DNA of 27,106 nucleotides, taken from IMG/VR virus record IMGVR_UViG_3300030328_000244, positions 5,965-33,070 of that record, one strand, 5' to 3'. The translations under genes and the position numbers were made by a program. The notes beneath the pieces are model-generated. The model was not told the DNA's origin and did not search any database. It saw only the letters and a list, made by a program, of their open reading frames with translations. Source of the stretch: a virus. Shown here one piece after another: positions 228 to 21,350 of this stretch; position 1 is the first letter of the stretch, and every line of letters begins with the position of its first letter.

Positions 228-3179
228 ATGACACTTACAAATGTAGAAAAGTTATTAATAGAAAATCATGGTTTTGTTCAGATGCCTAATGGTTTAATAT
301 TATCTCCTGAAGGAAAAGTTAGAACCGTAGTAGACGGTAAAACTACTTTTACATCTTTATCACCTATAGAACAATTAAAATTTGAATCAGGTGCAACTAA
401 TATATTTTCAGATACTCCTTTTGATGTATCTAATCCACCAATTGCTACGTCACCACCTGCAGCACCTGCAGTACCTGTTGATGATACGTCTAGTGCTACA
501 GAGTCACCACCTGCAGAACCTACACAACTAGAGGGTGGAATACTTACTCCACCACAAGGCGGTTTTTCAACAGGAGACCCTGTAGCAGCACCACCACCAA
601 ATATACAACCTGCAGGAGACCCTAATGCACCTGCAGATACAGTAGGTGGTGTAACAGCAACATCTACCCCCGACCCTGTAGCATCTGATGCAGGTGTAGC
701 TCCACCACCACCTGCAAATAATACTTCTGCAGAATCAGGTAGGCAAAATATATTTTTATATAATCCTGAAACGGGAAAATATAGAATACTTCCTGCAGGT
801 ATGCTTGGAAAAATGCCGGGCGATACAGAAATAACAGAAGCAGAGTATAGAGAGGCTTTAGGAGATGAATTAGCAGATACAAGAATAGCAGAAGCTAATG
901 CTAGAATTAATAATAACAACAATAATCAAATTCCTAATCCTACTAATGATTCAGGTATAGCTGCACTTAATGCTACGTTAGCTAATCCTACTGGTATTAA
1001 TCCTAATACAGGACAACAGTACAGTCCTGAAGATATATTTGTAGCTAAAGAACAATACAAAGCTCAAACAGGATTAAATTTTGATACAGGTCAACCTGAT
1101 GCACCTCTTCAAAATACAACTACTATAGATACTGGTAATATAGATGGACCAACTACTTATACAAATGTGGATACTGGTAATTTAAGTCAATTTCATGGTA
1201 CAGGTGGAACTGACAGTGTAGTTATTGACGGTCAAAGGTACAATAATTTTGATTTACAAGCTTTTCAAAAAGCTAACGCTACTAATGTAGTTCCTACGCA
1301 AGTAACTACAGGTACAACAGGTACAACTGGAACTACAGGTACAACTGGAACTACAGGTACACCATCACCAACATCAGCTATAACACCTACACCTGTAACT
1401 CAAATATCAGATGCTCAAGTTGCAGCAGGTAACATAGCTACAGGTACAGGACAGATAACTGGAACACCTGCAGGTGCTACAGCTACTACTGCAAAAAGTG
1501 CATCTACAGCGGCAGCACCTGCAGAAGATGCTGTAGAAGCCCAAACATATAATGCAAAAAAAGCACAGACTGATGCTCAAACAGCACTTAATACCGTAAC
1601 TGCAGAAACTATAGACACTACAGATGGATTACCTACAGGTGCTACAGTAACTGCACAAACACTAGCTCCACAACCACCGCCTGTTACTACGCAACCTGCT
1701 ACTGCAGGTACTACCACTACAACTGCACAAACAACAGCACAACCTACAGCTACAGACGTAGGGCAACTCGTAGAGCAAAAAGCAGGTGCAGACAGTGGCT
1801 TACGGCAAATAGGTTTAGATGCTGCTCAAATAGACCCAACAAAAGTACAAACAGTAGATGCACCTGACGCTTTAACTGCAGTTCAAACTACAAAAGACGT
1901 ACAAGGTGACTTACTTAACACTAATGTATCATCCGTAGACCAAACAATAGTAGAAAATACTATATCTAAAACTGCTGCAGCTACAGCTACGCCAAGTGAA
2001 CAAGCCACAGTACAAGGACAATTAGCTACATTAACTTCTAATTTTGATGCTACAAATCCCCCTGCATGGGCAGCAGGTGCATTACGAGCAGCTAATGCTC
2101 AAATGTCAGCTAGAGGTTTAAGTGCTTCAAGTATGGCAGGTCAAGCTATTTTACAGGCTACATTTGAATCAGCTATACCTATAGCTCAAATAGATGCTTC
2201 TACCTTTGCTCAATTTGAAGTACAAAATTTATCTAACAGACAACAAGTTGCTATGTTTGGTGCTCAACAAAGAGCTAAGTTTTTAGAAATAGAATTTAAT
2301 CAAGACTTTCAGATGCGAGTAGCTAATGCGTCACGTATAGCTGACATAGCTAATATAAACTTCAGTGCAGACCAACAGATAGCATTAGAAAATTCACGTA
2401 TGGCTCAAACAGTAGACTTAGCTAATCTTAATAACAGACAAGCTAAAGTAATGGCTGACGCTGCGGCTTTAACTAATTTAGATATGACTGAATTAAATAA
2501 TAGACAACAAGCTGCAGTAATGAATGCACAAAATTTCTTAGCTATAGAAATGGCTAATCTTAATAACGAGCAACAAACATCCTTATTTAAAGCTCAAGCG
2601 ATACAGCAAGCTATACTTTCCGATAAGGCAGCAGAGAATGCACAATTACAATTTAATGCATCAAGCCAAAATCAAGTAAATATGTTTATGGAAAATTTAG
2701 CTGCAGATATAAACAAGTTTAATGCTGACCAAAAAAACGGTGTTGAAATGTTTAATGCAGGACAAGAAAATGCCATTGCACAGTTTAATGCTGAACTAAG
2801 TGAACGTAGAGAACAGTTTAATGCACAGAATGGTCTTGTAATAGCTCAAGCTAACGCAGCGTGGAGACAAAGCACTACTACAGCTAACAATGCTACACAA
2901 AATGAAGCCAATAGAATAGACGCTAAAGCTTCTACAGAAATGACTAGAGCACAAATGGATGAATATTGGCAAGCAGCTAGGGATACTATTGCGTATGCTT
3001 ATGCTTCAGCAGAGTCAGAAAAAGATAGACTACAAGAAATATTTATCACAGAACTTACTGCTAACACAATACAAGAAATGGAAGCTAATACTGCACGTAA
3101 ACGTGTGTTCTTAAAATTTATTGATGCTACAATAACCGCAATAACAAGTCGCAATTTCTTAGGTGGTTTTAATCAATAG
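228..3179 (+). CDS. Large structural protein with low-complexity N-terminus and 11-residue helical repeats
   Basis: 983 residues. Roughly residues 1-70 look ordered; about 70-650 are rich in Pro, Thr, Ala, Gln and Asn, with an Asn run near residue 228 and a Gly-Thr-Thr tandem near 362-379. From about residue 667 to 919 the protein falls into 23 consecutive 11-residue units with no insertion or deletion, most starting with Asn or Asp (for example NAGQENAIAQF, NAELSERREQF), implying one very long helix or right-handed coiled coil. I see no cysteine and no catalytic motif. It lies in the late virion unit just before the lysozyme and ends in TAG directly followed by that gene's frame. I do not recognise the family with certainty. 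An internal-core, tail-tube or ejection-conduit role is inference from the helical repeat and the neighbours. Confidence 0.85.
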   Translation: MTLTNVEKLLIENHGFVQMPNGLILSPEGKVRTVVDGKTTFTSLSPIEQLKFESGATNIFSDTPFDVSNPPIATSPPAAPAVPVDDTSSATESPPAEPTQLEGGILTPPQGGFSTGDPVAAPPPNIQPAGDPNAPADTVGGVTATSTPDPVASDAGVAPPPPANNTSAESGRQNIFLYNPETGKYRILPAGMLGKMPGDTEITEAEYREALGDELADTRIAEANARINNNNNNQIPNPTNDSGIAALNATLANPTGINPNTGQQYSPEDIFVAKEQYKAQTGLNFDTGQPDAPLQNTTTIDTGNIDGPTTYTNVDTGNLSQFHGTGGTDSVVIDGQRYNNFDLQAFQKANATNVVPTQVTTGTTGTTGTTGTTGTTGTPSPTSAITPTPVTQISDAQVAAGNIATGTGQITGTPAGATATTAKSASTAAAPAEDAVEAQTYNAKKAQTDAQTALNTVTAETIDTTDGLPTGATVTAQTLAPQPPPVTTQPATAGTTTTTAQTTAQPTATDVGQLVEQKAGADSGLRQIGLDAAQIDPTKVQTVDAPDALTAVQTTKDVQGDLLNTNVSSVDQTIVENTISKTAAATATPSEQATVQGQLATLTSNFDATNPPAWAAGALRAANAQMSARGLSASSMAGQAILQATFESAIPIAQIDASTFAQFEVQNLSNRQQVAMFGAQQRAKFLEIEFNQDFQMRVANASRIADIANINFSADQQIALENSRMAQTVDLANLNNRQAKVMADAAALTNLDMTELNNRQQAAVMNAQNFLAIEMANLNNEQQTSLFKAQAIQQAILSDKAAENAQLQFNASSQNQVNMFMENLAADINKFNADQKNGVEMFNAGQENAIAQFNAELSERREQFNAQNGLVIAQANAAWRQSTTTANNATQNEANRIDAKASTEMTRAQMDEYWQAARDTIAYAYASAESEKDRLQEIFITELTANTIQEMEANTARKRVFLKFIDATITAITSRNFLGGFNQ
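1311..1364 (+). repeat. 9-bp tandem repeat encoding Gly-Thr-Thr
   Basis: Six adjacent 9-bp units, variants of GGTACAACT and GGAACTACA, the last diverged. They encode five Gly-Thr-Thr units followed by Gly-Thr-Pro within the disordered part of the large structural protein. The units alternate so that part of the array also reads as an 18-bp repeat. In-frame slippage would change protein length without breaking it. Confidence 0.8.
2226..2984 (+). repeat. Coding array of 23 hendecad (33-bp) units
   Basis: Residues 667-919 of the 983-aa protein can be cut into 23 units of exactly 11 residues. Position 1 is Asn or Asp in most units, position 2 is often Ala or Leu, and hydrophobic residues recur near positions 8-9 and 11 (frequently Phe in units 13-18). 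The DNA units are diverged, so the array is kept at the protein level rather than by recent duplication. An 11-residue period matches three helical turns and is known from right-handed coiled coils and membrane-binding amphipathic helices. Confidence 0.85.
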
Positions 3180-4094
3180 TTGAAAATTAACTATGTAGTA
3201 TTTATACTTATAATTTTAATACAAGGATACTTATTAATGTCTTATAAAAAAGCATATCAAAATGCACAATCTTTAGTAAATATGATACAAGAAGATGTAG
3301 CTAATATAAATACAGATATTAAATCTAAAGGTTTGGTGCGTAAAAATAAAAGTGTAGGAGATGTATTAGGTGCTTCTGAACAAGGACAACTTATGGCATT
3401 AATAAGAAAAAGACCTGATTTAAAAACTATGTACGCTATTAATCAATCTTTTAAAAATAAAAAACCTGTAGAAGTAGCTTCTTTAAAAACCACTACTGAT
3501 TATAATATGAGAACACATGATAAACTACCTGATGGAACATTGCGAGAACTAACTAAAGAAGAAAAAGCTCAGAGGGCGTATGAGTTAGATGGCAATGTAG
3601 TCACTAAATCTGTAACAGAAAATAAAGAATACACAACAGATATATCTAAGAAACTAATAAAAGATTTAAAAGCTGCCTTTCCTGATTTAACTAGAAAACA
3701 ATTAAGTGCTATTTTAGGAAATTTACATCACGAATCTAAAGGATTTACTCGTTATCAACAAATCATGGGTGAAGGAGTTTCGTATGCTCAATGGTCAGGC
3801 TCTAGAAAAGACGAGTTTTTAAAGTTTTCAAAAGATAATAATTTAGACCCTAAAGGGTATGATGCACCTCTTAAATTTTTAATATATGAATTAAACAATA
3901 ATCGTAAACATGGATTTTTAAATGAGAACTTTTCTAAAGCCTTTAATAATCCTGATGCTACACTGTCAGAACTAACAGAAATATTTGAAAATAACTATTT
4001 AGCTGCAGGTAAAAAATTAATGTCAGATAGAATAGTGGATGCAGAAGCTTATAATGCAGATGATTATCCATTTGAAATGACAGACGAAAACTAA
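3180..4094 (+). CDS. Membrane-anchored phage tail lysozyme (Phage_lysozyme2-like)
   Basis: The C-terminal half carries the pattern of phage tail lysozymes that cut peptidoglycan: ILGNLHHES with the expected Glu185, then AQWSGSR (203-209) and LKFLIYELNNN. Residues 5-19 form a clean hydrophobic span flanked by Lys, suggesting a signal anchor, so the enzyme would sit in or on the inner membrane, or be ejected with internal virion proteins. Start choice is uncertain. The frame begins at a TTG touching the TAG of the upstream gene (AGGTGG 13 bases before), while the ATG at 3237 has an ideal AAGGA nine bases upstream but would lose the span (285 aa). The upstream gene is in the same frame, so readthrough of the TAG would give a fusion. 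Role as virion lysozyme or lysis enzyme: inference. Confidence 0.85.
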   Translation: MKINYVVFILIILIQGYLLMSYKKAYQNAQSLVNMIQEDVANINTDIKSKGLVRKNKSVGDVLGASEQGQLMALIRKRPDLKTMYAINQSFKNKKPVEVASLKTTTDYNMRTHDKLPDGTLRELTKEEKAQRAYELDGNVVTKSVTENKEYTTDISKKLIKDLKAAFPDLTRKQLSAILGNLHHESKGFTRYQQIMGEGVSYAQWSGSRKDEFLKFSKDNNLDPKGYDAPLKFLIYELNNNRKHGFLNENFSKAFNNPDATLSELTEIFENNYLAAGKKLMSDRIVDAEAYNADDYPFEMTDEN

Positions 4095-4107: not shown

Positions 4108-4719
4108 ATGAGTATGTTTGATGCTCCAATTCCCGGTCAGTCACTAACTACTGAACCTAAAAACTATCCTTGGGAAAGACCACCTGAAATGTCCGACATC
4201 AATGAAGTAATATCGTTTTACATGAAAGGTATGTCTTCACCTCAAGTAATAGATAACCTTTTAGATATGTTAGAGTTAGATACACCAGTAGATGCTATTG
4301 TTAATGCGTACACTACCGTCAATGTAATGAAAGGTATGCATAATGTAGATGTTAAGTTACTAGTTAGTCCTGTGTTACATGAGTATATATCTACAATAGG
4401 TAAGGCTGCAGGTTTAGATGTTAAAAGTAGTTTCGATGAAGTAGACACAGGTGATGCAGATAATGAACAATCTACTATTCAGTTAATAAATAAAAGAGTT
4501 AATGAAATAGAGGTTAGTGAAGATGAAGAAGATGATGAAGGTGTAGAGTTAATGCGTCAAACTTCTGAGATGTTATCGTCAGGGTCAGGTATGAACGAAG
4601 AACCTATGATGCCACCCTTAGAAGAAGAAGAAGAGCCAATGCCAATGCCACCTATGAAAGAAGAACAACAACAACAAAGTCCACCTACAGGATTAATGAG
4701 TAGAAGAGGAGCAATGTAA
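4108..4719 (+). CDS. Uncharacterised late/virion protein with acidic, Pro/Gln-rich tail
   Basis: 203 residues. The first 120 look folded (motif GQSLTTEPKNYPWERPPEM near the start, then helical segments). Residues from about 130 onward are very acidic and end in Glu, Met-Pro and Gln runs, so the tail is probably disordered. AAGGAG precedes the ATG at good spacing, and the stop overlaps the next start by one base (TAATG), indicating translational coupling. Proteins opening like this recur in my memory of marine podovirus genomes, where they are unnamed neighbours of virion genes. No enzymatic motif is visible. Structural or scaffolding-type role is inference only. Confidence 0.8.
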   Translation: MSMFDAPIPGQSLTTEPKNYPWERPPEMSDINEVISFYMKGMSSPQVIDNLLDMLELDTPVDAIVNAYTTVNVMKGMHNVDVKLLVSPVLHEYISTIGKAAGLDVKSSFDEVDTGDADNEQSTIQLINKRVNEIEVSEDEEDDEGVELMRQTSEMLSSGSGMNEEPMMPPLEEEEEPMPMPPMKEEQQQQSPPTGLMSRRGAM

Positions 4720-5909
4720 TGGCTATAATTGAAGATGAAGATGAAAGAAAAAATACTTCTTTTGCTAATATATTAAAGTTAGCTGCTAGAGCAGCCTTAT
4801 CTAGAAGTGATGCAGGTGCTATAGCTGTTAAAGAAGACATGGATTTACGAGATGCAGAGGCTAAAGAATATACGGACAAAGCTTTAGATTATGTAGACAG
4901 AATGGCGTTACCTAGATTATTACAAAAACGTGCTGAAGCATTTAAAGAAGAAAAGTTTGCAGAGCTTTTAATAAATACACATGGTATGTCTCCAGAAGCA
5001 GTTAAAGCCATAAGTAATGGTGGCATAGGAGAATTAGAGAACTTTTATAAACAAAAAGCAGTAGAATTAACTACTGCTAATGGTTCTCCTTTAACAGGAA
5101 CACAATTAAATAGTATAGTAACTAATGCATCAGAGTTTGCAAGTGACCCAAGAGATGTAGTACAATTTATTAAAGACAGACATGAGCCTATGAAAGCTAT
5201 AATGAGACAAAGACAATCTATGCCTGAAGCAGCTATATTCTCTTCTATGTTTGGTAACTCTAAAGAAATATCTAATAGAAAATTATCAGAGTTACCTGTG
5301 TACGGAGACATATCTGCATTAGATATGGTTCGTTATGCAAAGGGTGGTGGATTTGAAGACACAACAGAAGATGAAATGGCTTCATACAACTTAGAACAAA
5401 TAGATAAAATAACTTCACCAAGCAGAATAAATAGAATAACTCCATCTTTTGCTCCTTACGTTCAATCTGCTTTACTGGTAGGAGACCCTGAAGTACAATT
5501 TAGTGCAGATAATGCTGTGTTTAAATTATTTCTTGTAAAACAAGGTATAGACATTGATAACATGGGTAAAGCTGGAAGTCCAGTTCAGTTTCAAGGAAAC
5601 ACTAGAATACTAGACCCTACTGCTTCATCTGATAAAGTAATGACTGCTAAAGATAACTATAAAATACAAAGAGATGCATACTTTACTGCATTTAACGCTA
5701 GTTCAAATAAATCTCAATTTACCGCAGAAACAACTAAATCTCTAATAACTCAATTTGATGATTTTAAATTTGATAGTATGAAACAGTTAAAACAATTTTT
5801 AGCTATAGTAGACCCTATGAAGAATCAAGCATTTAAATCTTGGGATGCTTTTAAAGTAAATAACCAAATAGTAACAGTTAAACAAACAGGATACTACGAT
5901 GAACTTTAA
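4719..5909 (+). CDS. Uncharacterised virion-module protein (396 aa)
   Basis: 396 residues, mostly helical in composition, with no membrane span, no cysteine that I can see and no catalytic motif. The N-terminus is highly charged (EDEDERKN). It shares one base with the upstream stop and overlaps the next gene by 11 bases, so the three genes are co-translated. Its position directly before the 1252-aa probable ejection protein resembles the series of internal virion proteins in T7-like phages (lysozyme, mid-size core protein, large core protein). By position only, it may be an internal core protein. I do not recognise the family. Confidence 0.8.
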   Translation: MAIIEDEDERKNTSFANILKLAARAALSRSDAGAIAVKEDMDLRDAEAKEYTDKALDYVDRMALPRLLQKRAEAFKEEKFAELLINTHGMSPEAVKAISNGGIGELENFYKQKAVELTTANGSPLTGTQLNSIVTNASEFASDPRDVVQFIKDRHEPMKAIMRQRQSMPEAAIFSSMFGNSKEISNRKLSELPVYGDISALDMVRYAKGGGFEDTTEDEMASYNLEQIDKITSPSRINRITPSFAPYVQSALLVGDPEVQFSADNAVFKLFLVKQGIDIDNMGKAGSPVQFQGNTRILDPTASSDKVMTAKDNYKIQRDAYFTAFNASSNKSQFTAETTKSLITQFDDFKFDSMKQLKQFLAIVDPMKNQAFKSWDAFKVNNQIVTVKQTGYYDEL

Positions 5910-8900
5910 TTTAGATGTCACAGATGAAGATGTAGAAAAATACGTGCAGTCTCAAAGTTCTACTGTTACTGCACCTACACCTGCTTCTGCTCCTGAGTTA
6001 GAACCTTTACCTGCAGATACAAAACTTACCTTAGAAGATTTATTACGACCTGAATATCAAGAAACTATGCGTGATTACTTACGCATTAGAACTTCTGTAG
6101 GTAAAGGTATAGATAGATATTCAGATGAAGAAGTTAGAGATATGTATATGTCTAGAATGAGAGATTTTGAAACAAGTGATGTAGGCATTTTAAATGAAAG
6201 TATATTTGCTAACAGACAAAAAGATGAAAATAGAATGATTACGGCAAAGGCATATCAACTGTATGACCAAGTAGGTAATATATTTCAATCAAAAGGTGAA
6301 GGATTTCAGGGTTTTAAAGATGTTGCGTTTGGTCTAGCAGAACACATAAACAACGTGTTAAATCCAGTATCTAGTCCTAGTACATATTTAGGTTTAGGTG
6401 CAGGTAAGTTAGCTACAACTGGTATTTTAAAAGCAGGAAGTGCAACAGTAAGACAAGGTTTAGTTAGAGAAGCCAAAAAGATGGGTGGTAGAAAAGCTGT
6501 AAAAGATTCTTTAGTAGATGAAGGTATAAAAAAGTTTACTAAGAAAGCTGTAGTTAGTGGTGTAGCTACATCTGCTGCAGTTGATGCTGCACTGGCATAC
6601 GGATTAGATGGAGCATATCAAGATGCTAAGATAAATATCGGTGTTCAAGATGAGTATAATAAATATCAAGCAGGTTTTGCTCTATTAACAGGGGTACTAG
6701 GTGGTGGGTTAGACTTATTAAGCAGGGCTAAGACAACTAAACTTTCAGGATTAGAAGCTGAAAAACTTTCAGAAGTTATGAAACTTAAAAACTATTACAC
6801 TGCTCCTGCAAAAAAGAAAGCTGTAGTAGTAGAAAGTGCATTAAAAAATGTTAGAAGTTGGACAGATAAAGTAAAAGCAGGTAAACTTATAATTGAAGAT
6901 GGTAAAGTAGACGGTGAAGCATTAACCGTAGACTTCTTTAGAACTTTTCTATTTGGTGATTCCGATGAAGGAATACAGGGTATGGGTCAGATACTTAGAG
7001 AGGCAGGATTAGATTTAGGAGTAAACACTAAAGCTAATAAAGATAAAGGTATAACTGATATTGTAGGTAATTTTTTAGATAGTGTTCCTAAACCTGTTCA
7101 AAAACAAATGACTCAAGCTTTAAATGATTCAGGTATATTTGTAAAGTTAGGAATACCTCACAGTAAAAGAAATCTTTCAAGCCTTCTTTCATACACTGTA
7201 AGTAAAGCAGGTCAAGAATTAAATATGTTTTCTCAACTTAAACAACAATGGGATGCTACAAGAAGAACTGGAAGTAAAGTGTACTTACAAACAGTAGCAG
7301 AAGAAGAAGCTGCATTAGAAAGATTAGCTAAAAAGAATGCAGAAAAACCATTACGAGGAAACTACTTACAAAACGTATGGAAAAGAACTGTTGTGTCAGC
7401 TTTTAGTACGACAATGTTAAACATAAAAGGTTTAGCAGGTATAACTGCAATTAAAACGGCTGAAGATGTAGCTATGGCAGCGACATTAGGAGTAATAAAT
7501 GCTCCTGTAGCTACATGGAGACTGATAACAGGTGATGTAAAAGGTGCTACAAAACAGTTTTATAGTTCGACAGCTATAATGAAAAATCAAGTTCAACGAT
7601 TAAGAAACTTGTTAGACCCTAATGCGACTAAAGAAATGTTTCAGGAGTTAATGAAAATAGACAAAGACTCAGCTAAAACATTGAATAGAATTGTATCTAC
7701 TGGTATTGAAACTGGAACAGATATAGCAGACATGGCTAAAAGATATAAATTTAAAACAGAAGCTGATATACATTTAACTAATGATAAAGGTAAAAAATTA
7801 TATATTAACTCAAAAGGTAAATCAACTACTAGAGAAACAAATAAACCTTACATAGCAAAAGGAACTGTAGATAATCCTAATGCTATGATGTTACGTACTG
7901 GTGAAGCATACGTAGGTGCTGCACAAAAAATTATGTTAGTTAAAACGGCTGACACATTTATGAAATCTCAAGCATACATAGGTAATTTAGATAGATTACT
8001 AAGAGATAAAATGGGAATGTCTTTACTTAGTATTACTCAAAAAGGTGTTAATAAACAAGGTAAAAAAGAAACTGAAAGAGAAGTATCAAAAAGAATAGCT
8101 AATGTATTTAGGTCAGAGGATTTTTTAAATGTTAGTGCTGAAGCCACATCTTTAACATTAGAAGACATACTATCTAAAAGCTATAGAAACAATGACCATC
8201 TTTTAGGAAAAATTGCAGGTGCAATAGAAAAAGTAGGTGACGTTCCTATTATAGGTACTCTATTTCCTTTTGGTAAATTCTTTAATAATACTGTAGCTTT
8301 TTCTTACGATATTATGGGTGGAGGAAGTATTGGTGCTATGTTAGATTTATACAGAGCAGGTACTATAAAAACAAGTGCTCTACGAAGTGAAACTAAAAGA
8401 AGTTTAAAGAGAGCAGCCGTTGTAGGTGGAGGTTTAAGTGGTGCTGCTGCTATTACTACTGAAGGTGATGATGGAGATGTTCAAGAGTTCTTTGAAGGTA
8501 TGATACGTGGTGCAGCTAGTTGGACTTTAGTTGGTTGGGCTATGGGTCACGATGTAGAAAAAATGCAAAAAGGTTTAAAGTGGAATGACGAAGAGAAAGC
8601 TAATGGAGATATTATAAATGTACAATATGATTTTCCTTATGCTCCCATAGCTATATTAGCCAGATATTTAAATATGAAAAAAGCAGGTGTAGAAATACCT
8701 AAAGAGTTTAATTTAGAATTAGGTGAACAGTTTGGATACGGTCAACTACAACGCAACTTTGGAAAATTAGGTAATGTTACTCGTTTAATAGACCAAGCTA
8801 CAGCAGGTGAATGGGAAAAAGTATCAGAGACAGCAGCTACATCTGTATTTATACCTGCTTCTTCTTTCGTAAGTGGTATGCTCAGACCTTTAGACCCTAT

Positions 8901-9657
8901 TAATAGATTAGCTGCCTACGGTTTAGGCGAAGATGCAGAACTTATGGATGCAAGACAAAGTGACTTATTATTTAAAGATAATGACAGGTGGTATAAAGGT
9001 GGAGCAAACAGAATTGTGCATGACGCAACTCGTTATGTAAATAATATCTTTGAATATTTAGGAACAGAACAGTTTGCTGATTCAAAAAGGTCTACTTCTA
9101 AAGAAGGTGATATATTACCACAAAATATAGTAGCTGATGTAGCTAGTTTTAGAACTGAAACACCTCGTACTTATACAGAGTTACTATTTAATGATGTAGG
9201 AATTTATAATTGGAGAGTTGATTCTCAAATAAAATCTAAATTTCCAGAAGCAGATTCTATGTATAAAGAAATAATACAACCTGAATTAGAGGCAAGAGCT
9301 AAGTTACTTTATAAAAGTAAAGACTACAAAGAAGCTAGTCAAGAAGATAAAAAAGGAAAGGTTAAGAGATTAATCTCAAATGTAAAATCTTCTATAAAAT
9401 ATTTAATGGATAAAAATTCTGTTAATAATTTAGAAAACGAAAACAGTGCAAGTGCTTTTATTAACATAAGAGAAATTTACAATGTAAAAAATTCTGTTCG
9501 TAAAGAAGCTATAAAATATGTAACAGGACAAGACGATTTAAGCATAGAACAATTAAAAAGATTAAGTAAAACTTCACAAGGTTTAAATGTAATTAAATCA
9601 ATAGCAGGAAGAATAAAAGCAATGAGAAGAACTACTATGGAACAAAGACCCTTCTAA
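5899..9657 (+). CDS. Very large internal virion / DNA-ejection protein candidate
   Basis: 1252 residues, the largest gene in the window and the last of the + strand unit. The N-terminal 50 residues are acidic and Pro-rich. Hydrophobic or Gly/Ala-rich segments recur near residues 220-275 (TSAAVDAALAYGL, LLTGVLGGGLDLL), 500-545 (STTMLNIKGLAGITAI, AAATLGVINAP), 785-805 (VPIIGTLFPFGKFFNN) and 830-850, separated by long charged helical stretches. Size, late position and membrane-seeking segments resemble the largest ejection protein of T7-like phages (gp16 class), which forms a trans-envelope channel. No lytic transglycosylase motif is evident, and a separate lysozyme gene lies upstream. Assignment is by analogy. 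The start ATG overlaps the previous gene by 11 bases. Confidence 0.85.
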   Translation: MNFNLDVTDEDVEKYVQSQSSTVTAPTPASAPELEPLPADTKLTLEDLLRPEYQETMRDYLRIRTSVGKGIDRYSDEEVRDMYMSRMRDFETSDVGILNESIFANRQKDENRMITAKAYQLYDQVGNIFQSKGEGFQGFKDVAFGLAEHINNVLNPVSSPSTYLGLGAGKLATTGILKAGSATVRQGLVREAKKMGGRKAVKDSLVDEGIKKFTKKAVVSGVATSAAVDAALAYGLDGAYQDAKINIGVQDEYNKYQAGFALLTGVLGGGLDLLSRAKTTKLSGLEAEKLSEVMKLKNYYTAPAKKKAVVVESALKNVRSWTDKVKAGKLIIEDGKVDGEALTVDFFRTFLFGDSDEGIQGMGQILREAGLDLGVNTKANKDKGITDIVGNFLDSVPKPVQKQMTQALNDSGIFVKLGIPHSKRNLSSLLSYTVSKAGQELNMFSQLKQQWDATRRTGSKVYLQTVAEEEAALERLAKKNAEKPLRGNYLQNVWKRTVVSAFSTTMLNIKGLAGITAIKTAEDVAMAATLGVINAPVATWRLITGDVKGATKQFYSSTAIMKNQVQRLRNLLDPNATKEMFQELMKIDKDSAKTLNRIVSTGIETGTDIADMAKRYKFKTEADIHLTNDKGKKLYINSKGKSTTRETNKPYIAKGTVDNPNAMMLRTGEAYVGAAQKIMLVKTADTFMKSQAYIGNLDRLLRDKMGMSLLSITQKGVNKQGKKETEREVSKRIANVFRSEDFLNVSAEATSLTLEDILSKSYRNNDHLLGKIAGAIEKVGDVPIIGTLFPFGKFFNNTVAFSYDIMGGGSIGAMLDLYRAGTIKTSALRSETKRSLKRAAVVGGGLSGAAAITTEGDDGDVQEFFEGMIRGAASWTLVGWAMGHDVEKMQKGLKWNDEEKANGDIINVQYDFPYAPIAILARYLNMKKAGVEIPKEFNLELGEQFGYGQLQRNFGKLGNVTRLIDQATAGEWEKVSETAATSVFIPASSFVSGMLRPLDPINRLAAYGLGEDAELMDARQSDLLFKDNDRWYKGGANRIVHDATRYVNNIFEYLGTEQFADSKRSTSKEGDILPQNIVADVASFRTETPRTYTELLFNDVGIYNWRVDSQIKSKFPEADSMYKEIIQPELEARAKLLYKSKDYKEASQEDKKGKVKRLISNVKSSIKYLMDKNSVNNLENENSASAFINIREIYNVKNSVRKEAIKYVTGQDDLSIEQLKRLSKTSQGLNVIKSIAGRIKAMRRTTMEQRPF

Positions 9658-10086: not shown

Positions 10087-11994
10087 TTACGCTCCTATAT
10101 CTACAATTTCACAACTATCTCCGCTACAGGCAAAGGTTTGACTACCTGCTGTAGCATCTTCATTCTCATAATCCATCAATCTATTCCAATTTATGTTGCC
10201 ATCCATCTTGGCTAACATATTATTATATTCTCCCTTATTACATTCCTGATAAGGTGCTTGTTGATACACATGGTCAAAGTGTGGTAAGAATGACACGCCT
10301 GACATTGCATCAAAGTGTTTGTACACAAATGCACCCACATCCATCCATTCAGAATCACGCACAGAAACAGTACAGCTAGGTTTATGTTCACACCAATGTT
10401 CCTGATACATCATCCACATCTCTAACTGTTCTACGGCTGACATATCATTACGTGTTACGCAACCCTCTGGTGATTTCATAGGAAAACTAAAGACGGTGGT
10501 AGAGTCAGGCTTCATTACATCAGGTTCATTAGGTATGCCTTGGTCAATCATAAAGTTAGTTAGTGGGTCTTTATTATCACCACGTACAGTTCTGATATAA
10601 TAATCACTATGTCTAGCATGAATACCACTGGCACTATCTACTAACTGTGATACTGTACCTGATGGTTTGACACAGGTAATGGCTGTAGACTGTGGTATGT
10701 TCCACTTGTAAGCATACTCTTTATTTGTAGCTATAGCCTGTTTCTTTAGTTGACACAGAGTTTCATTAAGTTTATCTGTCTTACCATTTGTAATTTGATT
10801 GTCCATAATACCTGTAAGAGATACACCCAATAATCTTTCTTCTTCTGTATTATTTTTCCATATCTTTCGTAGGTAAGGAAAACTAGTGAGTGTTGCCTGT
10901 GCTGTACCAAGTATGGTAGCTAGTCTTACCTTACGTTTAAGTTCTTCCAACGTATCTGTAGCACGTATAACTACCTCAGTTAGGTTACAAAACTGATGTG
11001 GTCTTAATATTATTTCTGAACATGGGTTTGTACCAAACTCATAATCAGGGTCTCTCCTACCATTCTTCTTAGCCTGTTTCTGTGCGGCTACTCTATTAAA
11101 TATGCCACGTTCACCAGACTTAGATTCAATCAAAGAAGTCCACTCACGCATAAAGGTCTCTGCGTTTGGCTTGTCTGTGTAGCTTACAGAGTTATTAGAC
11201 AGTGCCATGTGAGGTGCAGTCTCATACCAGTTACCTGTCTTTGCCTGTCTCATACGTATGTCTGAAAGATTACTCAGACTAATCATGGCTGACCTACGTA
11301 CCCCACCTACTACCACTACTTCACCTATCTTACACATGAGAGAGTGACAGTCGTAGCTTGTCAACTTCTTCCCTGCATTGTTAGTAAATAAGTTAATTGT
11401 AAAGTTAAATAAATCTACAAGAGGAGCAGGACCACTTGCTCTTCCACCAAAGGTTTTAAGTCTAGCTCCTGCAGGTCTAACTTTACTGACGTTGTACGTG
11501 GGTATCTCTCCTGCATACAGTAAAGCAATTAGTTGACGTAGACCTTTAGCCCAACCTTCCTTTGAGTCTTTAACGACAATAGTAGTGTCGCTTTTAAACA
11601 TCTTTTCTGGTATCTCTGGTAGTCTGTTGATGTACTCTCGTTCTACTGAAAAGCCTACACCTGTACCACAGAGTAGTATGTACATAGCTTCATCAAAAGA
11701 TTTAGGGTCATCAACAGGCAGATAGCTACAGTTGTACCCTGCAGTATTGTCTCTGTCTAACGCTTCTCCTGCAGTCATTAGTGCTCTCATAGAAGGCATA
11801 ACCTCTAACCCTAGTATAGCCTGTTCAATGTCAGTTTTGTCCTGCTTAGAAAACTTAACTTTACTGTCCATGTAGTCTACATAACGTGAAACAGTTTCAT
11901 CCCACGTTTCTCTACGTCCTTCATCGTCTAGCCATCTTGCATAGCGTGACGTAGCTATAAAATTTTGATAATCTGTTGGTAGCATGTTATTCAT
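10087..11994 (-). CDS. nrdJ: Adenosylcobalamin-dependent (class II) ribonucleotide reductase
   Basis: 635 residues. It reduces ribonucleotides to deoxyribonucleotides for phage DNA synthesis, using coenzyme B12. Key residues are present: Cys89 (NCSYLP) and Cys336 (QFCNL) as the active-site disulfide pair, the NPCSE motif with Asn323, Cys325 and Glu327, the GGVRRSAM element, and the C-terminal shuttle pair Cys623/Cys628 in CSGDSC. It matches the monomeric B12-dependent type (rtpR/nrdJ) seen in marine podoviruses, somewhat shorter than the roughly 740-residue Lactobacillus enzyme. There is no class I small-subunit gene nearby. The start overlaps a 54-aa ORF by eight bases, itself coupled to the MazG gene. 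Confidence 0.95.
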   Translation of the reverse strand: MNNMLPTDYQNFIATSRYARWLDDEGRRETWDETVSRYVDYMDSKVKFSKQDKTDIEQAILGLEVMPSMRALMTAGEALDRDNTAGYNCSYLPVDDPKSFDEAMYILLCGTGVGFSVEREYINRLPEIPEKMFKSDTTIVVKDSKEGWAKGLRQLIALLYAGEIPTYNVSKVRPAGARLKTFGGRASGPAPLVDLFNFTINLFTNNAGKKLTSYDCHSLMCKIGEVVVVGGVRRSAMISLSNLSDIRMRQAKTGNWYETAPHMALSNNSVSYTDKPNAETFMREWTSLIESKSGERGIFNRVAAQKQAKKNGRRDPDYEFGTNPCSEIILRPHQFCNLTEVVIRATDTLEELKRKVRLATILGTAQATLTSFPYLRKIWKNNTEEERLLGVSLTGIMDNQITNGKTDKLNETLCQLKKQAIATNKEYAYKWNIPQSTAITCVKPSGTVSQLVDSASGIHARHSDYYIRTVRGDNKDPLTNFMIDQGIPNEPDVMKPDSTTVFSFPMKSPEGCVTRNDMSAVEQLEMWMMYQEHWCEHKPSCTVSVRDSEWMDVGAFVYKHFDAMSGVSFLPHFDHVYQQAPYQECNKGEYNNMLAKMDGNINWNRLMDYENEDATAGSQTFACSGDSCEIVDIGA

Positions 11995-13206: not shown

Positions 13207-13673
13207 ACTACATCCTTTCTAGGAGTTTTCAGTTTAACTACTTTTTTTATAACACCTTTTTTAGGCTCTGTCAACCATTCAAAAGGTATGATTCTGTGTG
13301 CGTATAAAAATCCTTTCTGTTCGCACCACATTCCGTAAGTTGTTTTAGAACCTTTATATATTCTACTAAAAGTTGAAGTAAATACAAAACGTATATCTAA
13401 TTCAGGGTGTTGATTTTTTATTTCTAGATGTTTTCTTCTATCTTCTGAATCAAAAAATCCTTTTGTTTCTATTATTATACCGTTATCTAAAAGAAAATCT
13501 GGAGTATACGTTCTATAACGTAAGTCTTCCCACTCAATTTTTAAAGCTTCATATCTTACTTTTTTCTGCCTAGAAGATAGAAACTCAGATATTTTGTCTT
13601 CTAAACCACTTCTGTATTTGTTATTTATTTTACGTACATTTGCTCCGTACTTATTCTTTTTCCAATAAACCAT
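13203..13673 (-). CDS. T7 gp3-type endonuclease I (Holliday-junction resolvase)
   Basis: 156 residues, close to the usual length of T7 endonuclease I (149). Catalytic residues of the family are all visible: Glu25 in YRSGLEDK, Asp59 in YTPDFLL, and Glu69 and Lys71 in IIETKGF. The following segment DRRKHLEIKNQHPELDIRFVF and SRIYKGSKTTYG also match T7 gp3. It cuts branched DNA, resolving recombination intermediates and helping degrade host DNA. The start shares one base with the stop of the exonuclease gene. The last third of the gene carries a TTGACA/TATAAA pair that may be an internal promoter. Confidence 0.95.
   Translation of the reverse strand: MVYWKKNKYGANVRKINNKYRSGLEDKISEFLSSRQKKVRYEALKIEWEDLRYRTYTPDFLLDNGIIIETKGFFDSEDRRKHLEIKNQHPELDIRFVFTSTFSRIYKGSKTTYGMWCEQKGFLYAHRIIPFEWLTEPKKGVIKKVVKLKTPRKDVV
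13246..13274 (-). promoter_or_regulatory. Possible internal sigma-70 promoter in the endonuclease gene
   Basis: On the - strand TTGACA (13274-13269), 17-bp spacer, TATAAA (13251-13246). It would drive the 113-aa gene, DUF3310, mazG and nrdJ. TTGACA encodes Leu-Thr in a conserved protein segment, so chance is a real alternative. Confidence 0.4.
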
Positions 13674-14527
13674 CAGGCTACATCCGCTAATGTTATATAC
13701 TCAACCATTGGTGGTTCTTTTGCTTTAGATACTTTAGATGGCATTTCTTTTATGTTATCCCAACAAGAATATTTAAATCTACAAAAACGACATTCAATAG
13801 GTAATATTGTATTACCTGATGGAACACCTCTATATGTTTCTGGAACATCAGAAAAACATCTCTCAAAAGGTTCATCATTAACTATGTAATTAATTGTATC
13901 CTCGACCTTAGACATTACTTCTTCTGTGTCCATTTGTCTAGCTGATACATATTTAAAATCACCGTTTGCTTTATTTAAAACCCACCAACCACCTACATCA
14001 ACTCCTAAAGCTTTTGCATAGATAGCTAACTGTGCTACATATCCAAAAGAATCGTTGTTACTTAAAGTATTATAATCTGAAAATTTATTAGAATAAGACC
14101 ATGCAGAAGCTGATTTAATATCGTCTACTCTATTATCAATAGTTAAATCGTATTCTCCTGTTATGTTTTGATTTGCTATTTTAGTTTTAACTGTATCACT
14201 ATCTACAAAATCTACATTAGATGCACGTAAAACGCCTTTAAATATAGCTTCAACTATGTCTCCTATAATCATATTAAACATAAAGTTAGAAGGTAAAGGT
14301 TCTGCAGTTTCAGGTTTGTTTTTTTCAAACCATAGTTGGCATTTAGGTTTGCCTAGACCCGAAGGTCTAAGCTTAAATTCTTCTCTAGACTTCCCTGAGA
14401 ACTGTCTTTTTAAGGCTGCTCTCAAGTCTTCTACAACATTTTCAATTATATCATCAGACATTGTAGCTTGCCCTTTAACAGCTTTATCTAAGAAAGCTCT
14501 TATAGGCAGTTCTGCAGGGTGATTCAT
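13673..14527 (-). CDS. Cas4-like PD-(D/E)XK exonuclease with Fe-S cysteines
   Basis: 284 residues. PD-(D/E)XK nuclease core: Gly124 and Asp127 (GEYDLTI), Asp136-x-Lys138 (DDIKSA), and Gln166/Tyr170 (QLAIY). Four cysteines are placed as in Cas4/AddB-type nucleases: Cys63 (PKCQLWF) before the core and Cys246, Cys249, Cys255 (CRFCRFKYSC) after it, so an iron-sulfur cluster is likely. Located between the SSB-like gene and the gp3-type endonuclease, it occupies the slot of T7 gp6, the 5'-3' exonuclease needed for recombination, primer removal and host DNA breakdown. Functional equivalence is inference; the fold call is secure. Confidence 0.88.
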   Translation of the reverse strand: MNHPAELPIRAFLDKAVKGQATMSDDIIENVVEDLRAALKRQFSGKSREEFKLRPSGLGKPKCQLWFEKNKPETAEPLPSNFMFNMIIGDIVEAIFKGVLRASNVDFVDSDTVKTKIANQNITGEYDLTIDNRVDDIKSASAWSYSNKFSDYNTLSNNDSFGYVAQLAIYAKALGVDVGGWWVLNKANGDFKYVSARQMDTEEVMSKVEDTINYIVNDEPFERCFSDVPETYRGVPSGNTILPIECRFCRFKYSCWDNIKEMPSKVSKAKEPPMVEYITLADVA

Positions 14528-14528
14528 A

Positions 14529-15440
14529 TTATGATGCCTCTTCTAACTCAGATTCACCTAGAATATCATCTACAATGCTTTTATCGTCATCCGACATAGC
14601 ATCTTTAGAATGTTCTTTGTACTCTTTCATAATATAATCATTATGATTGACTATCCACTCTAAAAAATCTGTAGCTATTTTCTTATCTGCTTCTGGTGTA
14701 TCTTTAGATGAAGGATTAAGTTTAGCTACAACCGTATAATAAACTGCACCTGTAGGTAGACTCTGAGGTTCAGTAGTAAAGGTCATAGTATAATGATACG
14801 TTAAATGATGCAACTTAGATAACTTATCAAAAGGAACACCTGAAGTAGTAAAACTAGTCCTATTATCAATCTCAAATATAAACGGTATATTCTTCTCGAC
14901 TGTAGTAGGATTACCTTTATCATCAAGAGGGTCATCCAAAGTAACTAAACCAAAAATAACTCTGACTCGTTTAATACTTTTAATGAGGGCTTGCATATCC
15001 TCACTCAAAGATTTAAAGTCTTTTACAAATCCTGCAGGTTTACCACAGTTGAATGTGCCTCTGTTATCATGCAAATCATTATTTAAATTATTTGCCATTA
15101 CAGTTTTATGATAAAACCCCTTAGTGTCGGGTGAGGTAGACTGCACATATCTTTTGTACGAGAACCTTTGAACGTAAGGCTGAATAGTAATACTCTTAGA
15201 GTATACCATTGTGCCATCAGGCTTTTGAAGTGCATAACTACCGCCCTCAATCACCTCAATGTTTTTCATCTTACCGCCTATTTCTTGCTCCCCCATAATT
15301 GGAGTATGCAATATTTTTACTCTAGCTAAATCAGAAGTTCTCTTTTCATTAGAACTATTTTCTGAATCTAAGCCTAGTACTTTAGACATAACAGCGTAAT
15401 TATTCATATTATCAACAGTTACAATTTCATTATCAACCAT
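14529..15440 (-). CDS. Probable ssDNA-binding protein analogue
   Basis: 303 residues with a beta-rich body (KSITIQPYVQRFSYKRYVQ, IPFIFEIDNRTSF, HHLTYHYTMTFTTE) and a strongly acidic C-terminal tail (DDDKSIVDDILGESELEEAS). An acidic tail that docks replication partners is typical of phage and bacterial SSBs, and the gene sits between polymerase and exonuclease/endonuclease, where T7 carries gp2.5. It lacks the terminal aromatic residue of gp2.5 and I cannot see an OB-fold signature by eye. It has its own promoter (15476-15504) and a strong AAAGGAGAT ribosome site, suggesting high expression, as an SSB needs. Function is inference. Confidence 0.55.
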   Translation of the reverse strand: MVDNEIVTVDNMNNYAVMSKVLGLDSENSSNEKRTSDLARVKILHTPIMGEQEIGGKMKNIEVIEGGSYALQKPDGTMVYSKSITIQPYVQRFSYKRYVQSTSPDTKGFYHKTVMANNLNNDLHDNRGTFNCGKPAGFVKDFKSLSEDMQALIKSIKRVRVIFGLVTLDDPLDDKGNPTTVEKNIPFIFEIDNRTSFTTSGVPFDKLSKLHHLTYHYTMTFTTEPQSLPTGAVYYTVVAKLNPSSKDTPEADKKIATDFLEWIVNHNDYIMKEYKEHSKDAMSDDDKSIVDDILGESELEEAS

Positions 15441-15441
15441 A

Positions 15442-15504
15442 TTTATCTCCTTTGGTTTTTTTCAATAGATTTATAGTTATACTATTAAACATCTTTAGTG
15501 TCAA
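15442..15504 (-). promoter_or_regulatory. Sigma-70-like promoter and strong ribosome site for the SSB-like gene
   Basis: On the - strand TTGACA (15504-15499, inside the 3' end of the polymerase gene), 17-bp spacer, TATAAC (15481-15476), then about 25-30 bases of leader and AAAGGAGATAAA (15453-15442) before the ATG at 15440. It lies at the only gap (44 bases) between polymerase and SSB-like gene. Confidence 0.65.
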
Positions 15505-17524
15505 GCCAATTATCTCCTATTTTTGCCTCTAATAATAGAGGTACGTTAAAATCAACATCATAATAAGAATAGATAATGTCGTGCAGATTTGAGTTTAGTT
15601 TATGTACTGCCGCTATCACTTCATCTATCTCATCAGGATGTACATCGACAACAATAGAGTCATGTACTGTGTTTACCAGACATGACCTAATACTGTCAAG
15701 CTCTTTTTCAAACTCCATCATAATAACAGGCACAATACAGCCAGTAGCAAATCCCTGAACAGGATAATTTTTTATCATGGTAAAGTTAGAAACTCTCTCT
15801 CCTCTTCTTTGCATATTTTCAAACTCATACTGTCTACCTGACGGTGTTACAATACGATTAGTCTCTATAGCTTCATTAGCTAAATTTTTATGCCAAGACG
15901 CTATGCCTGTATACTTTTCATTAAAGTGAGTATAATAGGATGCCTCTGCTTTAGTTCTACCATAGCCACTAGCTCCGTATAAGGGAGCAAATGTATGTGC
16001 CTTGGCTTCCTGCCTAGACGTATCCTGACCTGCATCTGTAATAACCTTGGCAGTGTACGAATGCACATCAAAGCCTGTTTTAACCTCTTTCATTGCAGTT
16101 TCATCTTGAGCTAGAAAAGCTGCTACTCTAAATTCTAACTGAGCAAAGTCAGCTTCCATTATTTTACCGCCTTTCCAACGAGATACAAACACACGCTTAA
16201 CTGGGAAAGTATTACCTCTAGGCATATTCTGCATATTAGGATTACGTCCACTGAACCTGCCTGTAGACGTTATGTGTTGTGTTAATCCTACATGCAAATA
16301 GTTATCATCCTTAGTAAATATACGTATACCATTAACAAAAGACGAAAGATATGATTCTAATGCAGAAAGTCTACGTAAGCCACCTAAGAAATTAGCTTGA
16401 AAGTGAGAATTAGTTGAACGTGCATGCACTTCTAAACTCTCTATTTGTTTCTTAGAAGTGGAAAAACCGTTAGCACTAACCCACGACTTACCTGAAGGTT
16501 CTAATTTTAATCCTGCCCTTTCTTGTAGAGGTTTTAATAAGTAACCTTGTGCATCACAGTTAGTGCATTTATTTGGTTTCTTAAAACGTGTTCCATCTTT
16601 CTTAGTTTTATATATGTATCTTTCGCCTCTACAGTCTGCACATCTATAAGCTCTTGTTTTATATATAATTTCTGTATTTTCTTCAACACACTGTTTAAAT
16701 TCTGCAGGTGTTGTAACGTGATAAAATAGCTCTTCACCCCAAATATTCTTATCTATAACTCGTCTACCAAATATAAGTTGAGATACCTGCTCTGGACTAT
16801 TAAGATTAATAGGAGTATCACCCATTACTTGTTCAACATAAGCCTCTAGTCGTTGTTTTATTTCAGACCTTTCATTTTCAAACTCATATTGCACTGCATC
16901 TAATGCATCTTTATCAATCTTAACACCGTTCATATAAATACGAGTTAAAGTTTTACATACGTCATTGGTAATACGTAATACTTTATTTAAACTTTTATTC
17001 TCTTCATCTTTGTATTTATATTCTAGCTTATTAAATAAAGCTCTAGTTACTCTTATGTCTGCATTAAGATACGAACAAAGCTCATCAAATGGTATTTCTC
17101 TAGTGCTGTATCCTTTATTAAAATATTCTTTGAGAGTGTCTTCTTTTTTATAAGTAAGATGATACCGTTCTGCACAATCTTTAAGAGAAAGTTTACGTTT
17201 TAAACCTCTAGCTAATACATACTCAGCCAACATTGTGTCATATATGTCACCATCATATTTAAAACCACAAGACCAAAGCCATTGCAAATCATGTTGAGCA
17301 TTATGCATTATTAAAAGAGTAGTTTTATCTAATGTTGATTGAACTGCATCTTTAGTGTCAGGTTGATGCTCACAATGGTCGAATACCGATATTGACGGTG
17401 CATCTCCTGTATCTGCATTGCTGTAACCAATCATAGTTAAAGTATTGTCAGACTCAAATGGGTCTAAATGTAACTTACCATCTCTTTTGGTTGTTGTGTT
17501 TTCTACGTCTAGTATTGTTCTCAT
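15485..17524 (-). CDS. Family A DNA polymerase with DnaJ-type zinc-finger insert
   Basis: 679 residues. The 3'-5' exonuclease domain (about 1-175) has Asp6/Glu8 (DVE), Asp79 (HNAQHDL) and Tyr152/Asp156 (YLNAD). Residues about 291-330 hold a DnaJ-like zinc finger with Cys295, Cys298, Cys320 and Cys323 (CADCRG and CTNCDAQG), between exonuclease and polymerase. The polymerase domain has motif A ADFAQLEFRV (Asp459), motif B RQEAKAHTFAPLYG (Arg504, Lys508, Phe512, Tyr516) and motif C VHDS (His621, Asp622). Phe512 aligns with E. coli Phe762. This architecture is known, from memory, in HMO-2011-type marine phages. It is the replicative enzyme working with the primase and helicase genes just upstream in the operon. 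Confidence 0.95.
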   Translation of the reverse strand: MRTILDVENTTTKRDGKLHLDPFESDNTLTMIGYSNADTGDAPSISVFDHCEHQPDTKDAVQSTLDKTTLLIMHNAQHDLQWLWSCGFKYDGDIYDTMLAEYVLARGLKRKLSLKDCAERYHLTYKKEDTLKEYFNKGYSTREIPFDELCSYLNADIRVTRALFNKLEYKYKDEENKSLNKVLRITNDVCKTLTRIYMNGVKIDKDALDAVQYEFENERSEIKQRLEAYVEQVMGDTPINLNSPEQVSQLIFGRRVIDKNIWGEELFYHVTTPAEFKQCVEENTEIIYKTRAYRCADCRGERYIYKTKKDGTRFKKPNKCTNCDAQGYLLKPLQERAGLKLEPSGKSWVSANGFSTSKKQIESLEVHARSTNSHFQANFLGGLRRLSALESYLSSFVNGIRIFTKDDNYLHVGLTQHITSTGRFSGRNPNMQNMPRGNTFPVKRVFVSRWKGGKIMEADFAQLEFRVAAFLAQDETAMKEVKTGFDVHSYTAKVITDAGQDTSRQEAKAHTFAPLYGASGYGRTKAEASYYTHFNEKYTGIASWHKNLANEAIETNRIVTPSGRQYEFENMQRRGERVSNFTMIKNYPVQGFATGCIVPVIMMEFEKELDSIRSCLVNTVHDSIVVDVHPDEIDEVIAAVHKLNSNLHDIIYSYYDVDFNVPLLLEAKIGDNWLDTKDV

Positions 17525-20205: not shown

Positions 20206-20248
20206 ATGTGCCTACGGCAGTATACATATACATTTTTTTACTTGTCAA
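20206..20248 (-). promoter_or_regulatory. Sigma-70-like promoter of the replication operon with operator-like palindrome
   Basis: On the - strand a perfect TTGACA (20248-20243, within the last codons of the integrase gene), 18-bp AT-rich spacer and TATACT (20224-20219). Just downstream the inverted repeat TGCC-GTA-GGCA (20218-20208) covers the expected transcription start, where a repressor could bind. The primase ATG is about 25 bases further on. It separates the integrase from the replication genes. Confidence 0.7.
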
Positions 20249-21350
20249 GATAATTATTTCGTTTTGCTAGTGCATTTTTTGACGCAGCTAACGTATGTTT
20301 TATATATGGAGTCACAGATTGTAGGTTTTGATGACCACTTACAGCCATTATTTGTGTTATATCTACTCCTGCTTCCACCATTTCCGTAATGGCAGTCCTA
20401 CGCATGTCCATTACCTGTAACTCGCTAGGAAGACCACACACAGCTTTTATCTCTTTTGCTATGTGAGATACCTTAGTTATGTCATACGGCTTGTATGAGC
20501 CGTTTATGGGCGTTAGAGAGGGAGCAACATATTCTTGGAAGCCGAAGTCCTCTTTTTGCGTGGTCAACATTTTTAATAGATTATCTGATATAGGAATGCT
20601 TACTTCTGCTCTCCTCTTTGATTGTTCTAAATTTAACACACCTTCATTTAAATCTAAACTTTTCCATTTTAAGTTACGCATGTCTCCTGTTCTTTGTGAC
20701 CATTCGTAAGCCATCTGAGCTATTAGACCAATATTTCTCCACTTCCACTCAGAATAACACGTATCTAGAAAAAGTTTAACTTGTTTGGGTGTCCACATTA
20801 CTTTTCTAGCAATTTCTTTGCGTTTTTCTATGTTAGACACTGGGTTGTATAGAAGTATGTCATGTTCTAATCCTACACCCACTATTTTATGTAGTATAGC
20901 GTATGTCATGTTTGCAGTTCTAGTTCCCCTTTCTAACCATCTTTCATAAGCTAACTTAATATGTTTTCTTTTTAGGTTTTTAAGTTTTACGTTAGCTAGT
21001 GTAACACCCTCTATCTTAGTCATTAAACCATTATGAACCATATTTACATAATCTCTCTTAGTTTGGTCTTTTAACTTATTGAAAGAAAAGGTTGTTTGAT
21101 AAAATCTAAACAATGCGTAAAGTGTACTGTTCTCAGTTGGTATCTCCTGCGATATAACACTCTGTTTCCATGTATCAAACTTAAAGTTCATTTCATTAAT
21201 AAGTTTTTTACTTGTATACGTAGATGCTTCTACATCTAACACTTCAACTACACCTGCCTGTATAGCACGTTTAGGTGGTCGATAATTCCACCGAACATCA
21301 CCCTCTTTGGTTGTATACTTAGTAGTATATCTAGGTAATTTTATTTTCAT
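20238..21350 (-). CDS. int: Tyrosine recombinase / phage integrase
   Basis: 370 residues. An arm/core-binding domain (about 60-180) precedes the catalytic domain. Catalytic residues visible: Arg220 (SQRTGD), Lys245 (EQSKRRAE), Arg317 (MDMRRTA), His340 (SGHQNL) and nucleophile Tyr349 (TPYIKH). The His normally opening the HxxR box is Met314. The enzyme would integrate phage DNA into the host chromosome. No tRNA fragment or obvious attP core is visible beside it; the short gap to the primase holds the replication promoter instead. It is co-oriented with the early genes upstream and preceded by GGAG. Substitution of the box II His occurs in some active families, so activity is likely but unproven. 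Confidence 0.92.
   Translation of the reverse strand: MKIKLPRYTTKYTTKEGDVRWNYRPPKRAIQAGVVEVLDVEASTYTSKKLINEMNFKFDTWKQSVISQEIPTENSTLYALFRFYQTTFSFNKLKDQTKRDYVNMVHNGLMTKIEGVTLANVKLKNLKRKHIKLAYERWLERGTRTANMTYAILHKIVGVGLEHDILLYNPVSNIEKRKEIARKVMWTPKQVKLFLDTCYSEWKWRNIGLIAQMAYEWSQRTGDMRNLKWKSLDLNEGVLNLEQSKRRAEVSIPISDNLLKMLTTQKEDFGFQEYVAPSLTPINGSYKPYDITKVSHIAKEIKAVCGLPSELQVMDMRRTAITEMVEAGVDITQIMAVSGHQNLQSVTPYIKHTLAASKNALAKRNNYLDK

Follow-up and report, generated by a model that had tools for sequence, protein, structure and literature searches.

A length-quantised array of eleven-residue repeats in a candidate genome-delivery protein of HMO-2011-type marine phages

The window analysed here is a stretch of 27,106 nucleotides (positions 5,965 to 33,070 of IMGVR_UViG_3300030328_000244), taken from a virus record of 52,323 bases. 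Close to its start lie five consecutive genes:

228..3179, plus strand: ORF for a 983-aa protein, homologous by tblastn to HMO-2011 phage1322_25 (hypothetical protein), hereafter the array protein
3180..4094, plus strand: 304-aa protein, the next gene, Phage_lysozyme2 (phage tail lysozyme; Pfam PF18013, E=1.2e-14)
4108..4719, plus strand: 203-aa protein of the PIPGQSLT family, with 309 matches among the loci, counting those in the regions of all ten isolates
4719..5909, plus strand: 396-aa protein, in the slot occupied by a 300-900-aa protein in relatives
5899..9657, plus strand: 1252-aa protein, last gene of the structural block, with relatives in many loci

The order of the block is conserved. 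The array protein comes first and is followed by small or hydrolase genes, by a protein of ~190 aa and, usually, by proteins of 300-900 aa and 800-1300 aa. Hydrolases near the array gene are also annotated in CRP-3, CRP-212, RHph_N3_13 and ctYwJ313. Nearly every locus has the 203-aa PIPGQSLT protein close to its array gene, in spite of strong divergence among the remaining neighbours. Genes for tail fibres and spikes precede the array gene. In the phage of the window, the portal is of the SU10 type, a terminase is encoded and the major head protein matches both Phage_capsid_4 and P22_CoatProtein. An SU10-type portal was found in 12 of the 16 contigs checked; most of the long-array phages checked have one.

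The array protein itself can be divided as follows:

228..1976, plus strand: residues 1-583, variable Pro/Thr/Ala/Gly-rich N-terminal region, unconserved between homologues
729..914, plus strand: residues 168-229, a 62-residue segment with 79% identity to an array-less 576-aa protein
1977..2225, plus strand: residues 584-666, conserved N-terminal anchor, predicted helical (ATVQGQL..PPAWAAGA..ARGLSASS..GQA..ESAIPIAQ)
2226..2687, plus strand: residues 667-820, array part 1, best fitted by 22-residue repeats
2688..2984, plus strand: residues 821-919, array part 2, 11-residue repeats (..FNA..), the last 1-2 units weak
2862..2864, plus strand: Trp 879, where the length measurements end, in the conserved C-terminal anchor (N.xWR)
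2985..3176, plus strand: residues 920-983, C-terminal helical tail

The N-terminal region contains 55 prolines in 584 residues. It includes a short in-frame tandem repeat of period 9/18 in a Thr-Gly-rich run (window 1308-1361), and the 62-residue segment (window 729-914) ends in a run of Asn. The array-less 576-aa protein belongs to other viral contigs (L004-L008) and carries the PAMLSEGEYVVPADV motif. The presence of this segment in otherwise unrelated proteins looks, from their sequences, like module exchange. In relatives, the C-terminal tail is swapped or extended by other modules: a Peptidase_S74-like domain forms the C-terminal end of 31 homologues, all with 162-residue arrays, and a CWVAREVYG-type end is present in 8; most homologues have no S74 domain.

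Searches with tblastn matched 27 phage records. The closest matches were Puniceispirillum phage HMO-2011 (58% identity over residues 584-946), Roseobacter CRP phages and Pelagibacter HTVC104P; more distant ones were Pseudoalteromonas Slicky01, Rhizobium, Sinorhizobium, Vibrio CHOED and Aeromonas MQM1 phages. Nearly all of the matched proteins are called hypothetical, one is named 'huntingtin' and one lies where no gene is annotated. Four overlapping scans of viral contigs returned at least 582, 471, 202 and 516 relatives, respectively. The array protein belongs to a family that lacks annotation and occurs in short-tailed marine phages of the HMO-2011 type as well as in more distant podoviruses. 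Neither the protein nor its conserved part had a significant match in Pfam or PHROG, with the exception of PHROG 6121 for the CRP-3 homologue. This group, filed under head and packaging as a virion structural protein, reaches few members of the family and includes the S74 domain. A profile search of solved structures gave no match to the array protein, and Foldseek of the AlphaFold2 model against the PDB gave nothing meaningful; against viral models, only four matches were obtained at E <=0.001, all to unnamed or uncharacterised phage proteins.

An initial sequence-only reading of the window had described an uninterrupted array of 23 eleven-residue helical repeats at 2226-2984. The coordinates proved exact: the 253 residues 667-919 divide into 23 units of 11 without any indel, 17 of the 23 units start with Asn or Asp, and 83% have a hydrophobic residue or Ala at position 11. 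In the window array, identity at lag 11 is 0.186 (z=5.2, with none of 1000 shuffles as high), identity at lag 22 is stronger (0.238, z=7.9, 1000 shuffles) and lag 7 gives no signal. From the sequence, therefore, the unit is best read as partly 22 rather than 11 residues, with 22-mers from residue 667 to about 820 and 11-mers thereafter. Periodicity fades beyond about residue 900, hence the weakness of the last one or two units. Within the window array, no tandem repeat is left at the DNA level; thus, the units are old in this phage.

The register was compared across the family by measuring the distance between two anchors located by profiles, from the end of PIAQ to the W of N.xWR, in 336 homologous ORFs. 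Nineteen different distances occur, between 118 and 778 residues, all congruent modulo 11, so that the expectation that homologues should differ by multiples of 11 holds exactly in 336 of 336 ORFs. As these ORFs are related, they do not represent independent events, and the fairer measure is given by the 24 clusters at 60% identity, over which the congruence is kept as it is over 77 clusters at 70% and 217 at 90%, together with the many distinct lengths. Control distances in the same ORFs, one between the W and the stop, the other between the first Met and PIAQ, fall into all eleven classes modulo 11. Moreover, the anchors have their leading P and aromatic residue in 283 of the 336 ORFs and the array itself is usually devoid of Trp; an anchor would therefore rarely be a slipped array unit.

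Most of the variation in array length falls in part 1 (residues 667-820). In long arrays, internal identity peaks at lags 22, 44 and 66, and is strongest at lag 110, where it reaches 41-57% in L296, L297, L298, L302, L328 and L338. At the sequence level, this pattern suggests that 110-residue cassettes were duplicated in tandem. Two ladders of lengths rise by steps of 110 residues, one from 228 to 778 and the other from 206 to 536. Finally, L300 and L298 have flanks that are 94% identical and arrays that differ by 330 residues, L302 being intermediate. Taken together, the lag-110 peaks, the ladders and the L300/L298 gap indicate that the array gains or loses length in cassettes of ten hendecads, 16.5 nm each.

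The composition of the array would suit a continuous helix. Proline is absent from the arrays of the 336 ORFs (81,352 residues in all), as compared to 7028 of 109,140 residues (6.4%) upstream in the same ORFs, and in 144 non-redundant sequences Gly and Pro together account for 1.2% of array residues. The AlphaFold2 model of the window protein is essentially all helix (mean pLDDT 69), with low-confidence breaks near residues 724-738 and 779-808. For a homologue with a 162-residue array the model is also helical (mean pLDDT 54) and otherwise uninformative. Such predictions are compatible with either a straight or a folded-back helix and do not settle the matter. The idea of an uninterrupted, helix-compatible array is thus upheld by the lack of proline and the strict register, AlphaFold2 adding a helix at moderate to low confidence.

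The distribution of hydrophobic residues along this helix departs from what had been anticipated. The sequence-only reading foresaw a right-handed coiled coil or a long amphipathic helix, with a hydrophobicity peak at 3.67 residues (11/3). In the window array this peak is missing (power 2.0 versus a shuffle mean of about 9), and 11-residue periodicity does appear in the spectrum, as power at 11, 2.75 and 2.2 residues (11/1, 11/4 and 11/5). The same holds for 144 non-redundant homologues, with a mean power of 7.5 at 3.67 (9.2 shuffled), as against 121 at 2.75 and 98 at 2.2 (9.5 shuffled). The tape measure protein of TP901-1 served as a control: its repeat region has a peak at 3.68 residues and a power of 232 at 11/3, versus 10 after shuffling; the spectral test is therefore able to detect a stripe. 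The three hendecads of phiX174 H are too short for a clear spectrum. On a wheel with three turns per 11 residues, two opposite hydrophobic seams are formed, one by positions 11 and 8 around position 4, the other by positions 2 and 10 around position 6; positions 4 and 6, thus flanked, are Asn/Gln. The face made of positions 1, 5 and 9 is 32% charged. The face made of positions 3 and 7 is neutral, rich in Gln/Asn/Ser/Ala, with 16% charged residues, 43% Asn/Gln and 2% large hydrophobic residues. Over the family, the array contains 14% Asn and 16% Gln. Given the lack of power at 3.67 and the two seams, neither a coiled coil of two to four strands nor an ordinary amphipathic helix is likely, and the two seams would rather point to a wide tube or sheet.

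Several phage systems share part of these features. In some long-tailed phages, tape measure proteins have 11-residue repeats in variable number, duplicated in blocks (PMC3271669; PMC5099701). Like those of TP901-1, p2 and Clostridium and Bacillus prophages, the array protein is a mostly helical phage protein with tandem 11-residue units, its array changes in length by whole blocks and a lysozyme domain is nearby. However, it belongs to short-tailed phages, shows no detected homology to tape measure proteins and has neither the 3.67 stripe nor a Trp/Phe marker in each unit. A second likeness is with the phiX174 H pilot tube, described as having hendecads in a long Gln/Asn-rich helix, whose amides may line the DNA path (PMC7354561). 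The array recalls it by its amide-rich hendecad helix and by the neutral face that positions 3 and 7 form with amide and small residues, as a likeness and not a homology. In H, however, three hendecads are followed by heptads, and the passages that describe them mention no comparable length variation (PMC7354561).

The gene neighbourhood invites comparison with Kuravirus SU10, where gp20-24 leave the virion upon genome release (PMC9509320). As in SU10, the block comes after tail genes, contains a peptidoglycan hydrolase, runs in a small-to-giant order and goes with a related portal family, but SU10 gp21 and gp22 show no such array by eye. By its succession of small, medium-sized and very large proteins, the block also recalls T7 gp14/gp15/gp16 and P22 gp7/gp20/gp16, and the layout resembles that of T7 genes 14-16, although no HH or HMM match to T7 or P22 ejection proteins was obtained. 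Indeed, hhalign of the array protein against T7 gp13-16, P22 gp7/8/14/16/20/26 and SU10 gp18/20-24 gave probabilities below 2%. Similarly, the 203-aa family had no reportable hhalign match to T7, P22 or SU10 proteins, and the middle and giant proteins of HMO-2011-type phages had none to known ejection proteins. PHROG 4287, 598 and 805, including the PHROG of SU10 gp21/gp22, are absent from the 16 genomes. HMO-2011-type phages are described as short-tailed and among the most abundant marine viruses (PMC9038755). Despite this reported abundance, no ejection-protein family tested is recognised in them, and the array protein points to a delivery part that can be tested.

We tentatively propose that the array protein is a virion protein of the genome-delivery apparatus, in which helices pack side by side to give a rod or tube of quantised length; this proposal may hold, with a likelihood that we place somewhat under one half. 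It would thus be an ejection-apparatus component of short-tailed HMO-2011-type phages, located in the virion according to homology and gene order. A survey of the literature on virion proteomics of these phages returned nothing that settles its presence there, and no mass spectrometry or imaging was found. Residues 667-919 would form one long Pro-free α-helix, each unit making three turns, spanning ~1.65 nm and coming back to the same side of the helix. Because each unit ends on the same side, the packing could survive the gain or loss of whole units, and a change that is not a multiple of 11 would upset it. Each helix would touch two neighbours, an arrangement better suited to a wide helical tube or sheet than to a two- to four-stranded coiled coil. 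If the amide-lined pilot tube of phiX174 is a guide, the DNA path could be lined by the neutral face (positions 3 and 7), and the adjoining tail lysozyme would open peptidoglycan. We infer oligomerisation, the tube and the ejection function on these grounds.

An ejection protein with side-by-side helices is the best fit to the register, the composition and the gene order, even if we would not give it quite an even chance. The main difficulty is that a conduit of fixed span should not vary from 118 to 778 residues, nor by 330 residues between near-identical phages with SU10-type portals. The S74-type ends of 31 homologues, the modest confidence of AlphaFold2 and the failure to match any known ejection protein or solved structure also speak against ejection. 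In this respect, it had been noted that as one helix the array would be long enough to cross a bacterial envelope. The arithmetic is right for the window copy, but the length is no evidence of a conduit tuned to the envelope, because arrays range from 18 to 117 nm as one helix and vary even between near-identical phages. Either the function tolerates length, as a spacer, a filler or a fibre would, or the helix is folded or staggered.

Tolerated length changes of 50 nm would suit a spacer, and the array could accordingly form the shaft in a trimeric fibre, spike or needle of the tail; its variable length would determine how far this structure reaches, and the S74-type C-terminus that some homologues have would act as a trimerisation chaperone. 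In known proteins, Peptidase_S74-type domains go with trimers, often those of tail spikes and fibres. The 31 S74-ended homologues with their 162-residue arrays, the upstream tail-fibre and spike genes and the highly variable N-termini agree with such a shaft. Nevertheless, we find it unlikely: a trimeric coiled coil requires a single hydrophobic stripe, and neither the 3.5- nor the 3.67-residue stripe expected of a two- to four-stranded fibre or needle was found; the needles SU10 gp18 and P22 gp26 have no hhalign match; most homologues are without S74; and the gene is grouped with a lysozyme and giant proteins. Tolerance of length would also agree with a filler inside the head, little constrained in its length, in which the helices would be stacked as a core or scaffold-like mass, either about the portal or within the DNA. 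Cores of this kind are present in T7-like phages (PMC8954989), and PHROG 6121, the sole family matched, is a head and packaging one. But this group matches few members and has the S74 domain in it, there is no homology to T7/P22 core proteins or scaffold, and a filler alone leaves the strict 11-residue register unexplained, all of which renders this explanation distinctly improbable.

It may also be imagined that the helices extend in the lumen of the tail or along the head-tail axis, where they would set the length of a tail structure before being released into the envelope on infection, in the manner of a tape measure. The variable 11-residue repeats and block duplication of known tape measure proteins (PMC3271669; PMC5099701) follow the growth law seen here, with blocks of 22 and 110 residues, and the lysozyme domain that adjoins the array gene is also present in tape measure proteins. 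However, HMO-2011-type phages are described as short-tailed (PMC9038755), long-array contigs have an SU10-type portal and the TP901-1 stripe (power 232) has no counterpart in the array (2.0), so that a measuring role appears improbable. A tape-measure-like motif was sought in the homologues and not found. Least probable by far is an amphipathic helix lying on or perforating a membrane. Repeats of 11 and 22 residues are typical of such apolipoprotein- or synuclein-like helices. These need one broad hydrophobic face with a 3.67 period, yet the power at this period is at or below the shuffled level and 30% of the family array is Asn+Gln.

Returning to genome delivery, a more ambitious statement is that one of the commonest ocean phage groups has a previously unrecognised delivery module, made of a two-seam amide-faced helix forming a wide tube or rod, that grows by whole hendecads and by 110-residue (16.5 nm) cassettes to reach ~117 nm in short-tailed phages. 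Taken as a whole, this seems doubtful to us. As far as these searches show, the family, the strict quantisation over a 6.6-fold range of lengths and the two-seam pattern in short-tailed phages are new. Variable 11-residue repeats in tape measure proteins and the hendecads of phiX174 are already known (PMC3271669; PMC5099701; PMC7354561), and the array protein is not filed as a member of the tape measure or phiX174 pilot families. The missing 3.67 stripe separates the array from tape measure repeats and raises the question of how a helix with two opposite seams assembles. Arrays of 118-778 residues, quantised at 11 and containing no proline, offer an unusually clean natural experiment on how a helical rod might vary in length.

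Other genes of these phages may be mentioned. In L348, a 1186-aa ORF (13379-16939 of its own genome) lies between the portal and major capsid protein genes and has no significant PHROG or Pfam match. On the minus strand of the window, the replication module contains a tyrosine integrase (20238-21350; PF00589, E=1e-20), and a short B12-dependent ribonucleotide reductase (phrog_367) is encoded at 10087-11994; HMO-2011 has one too.
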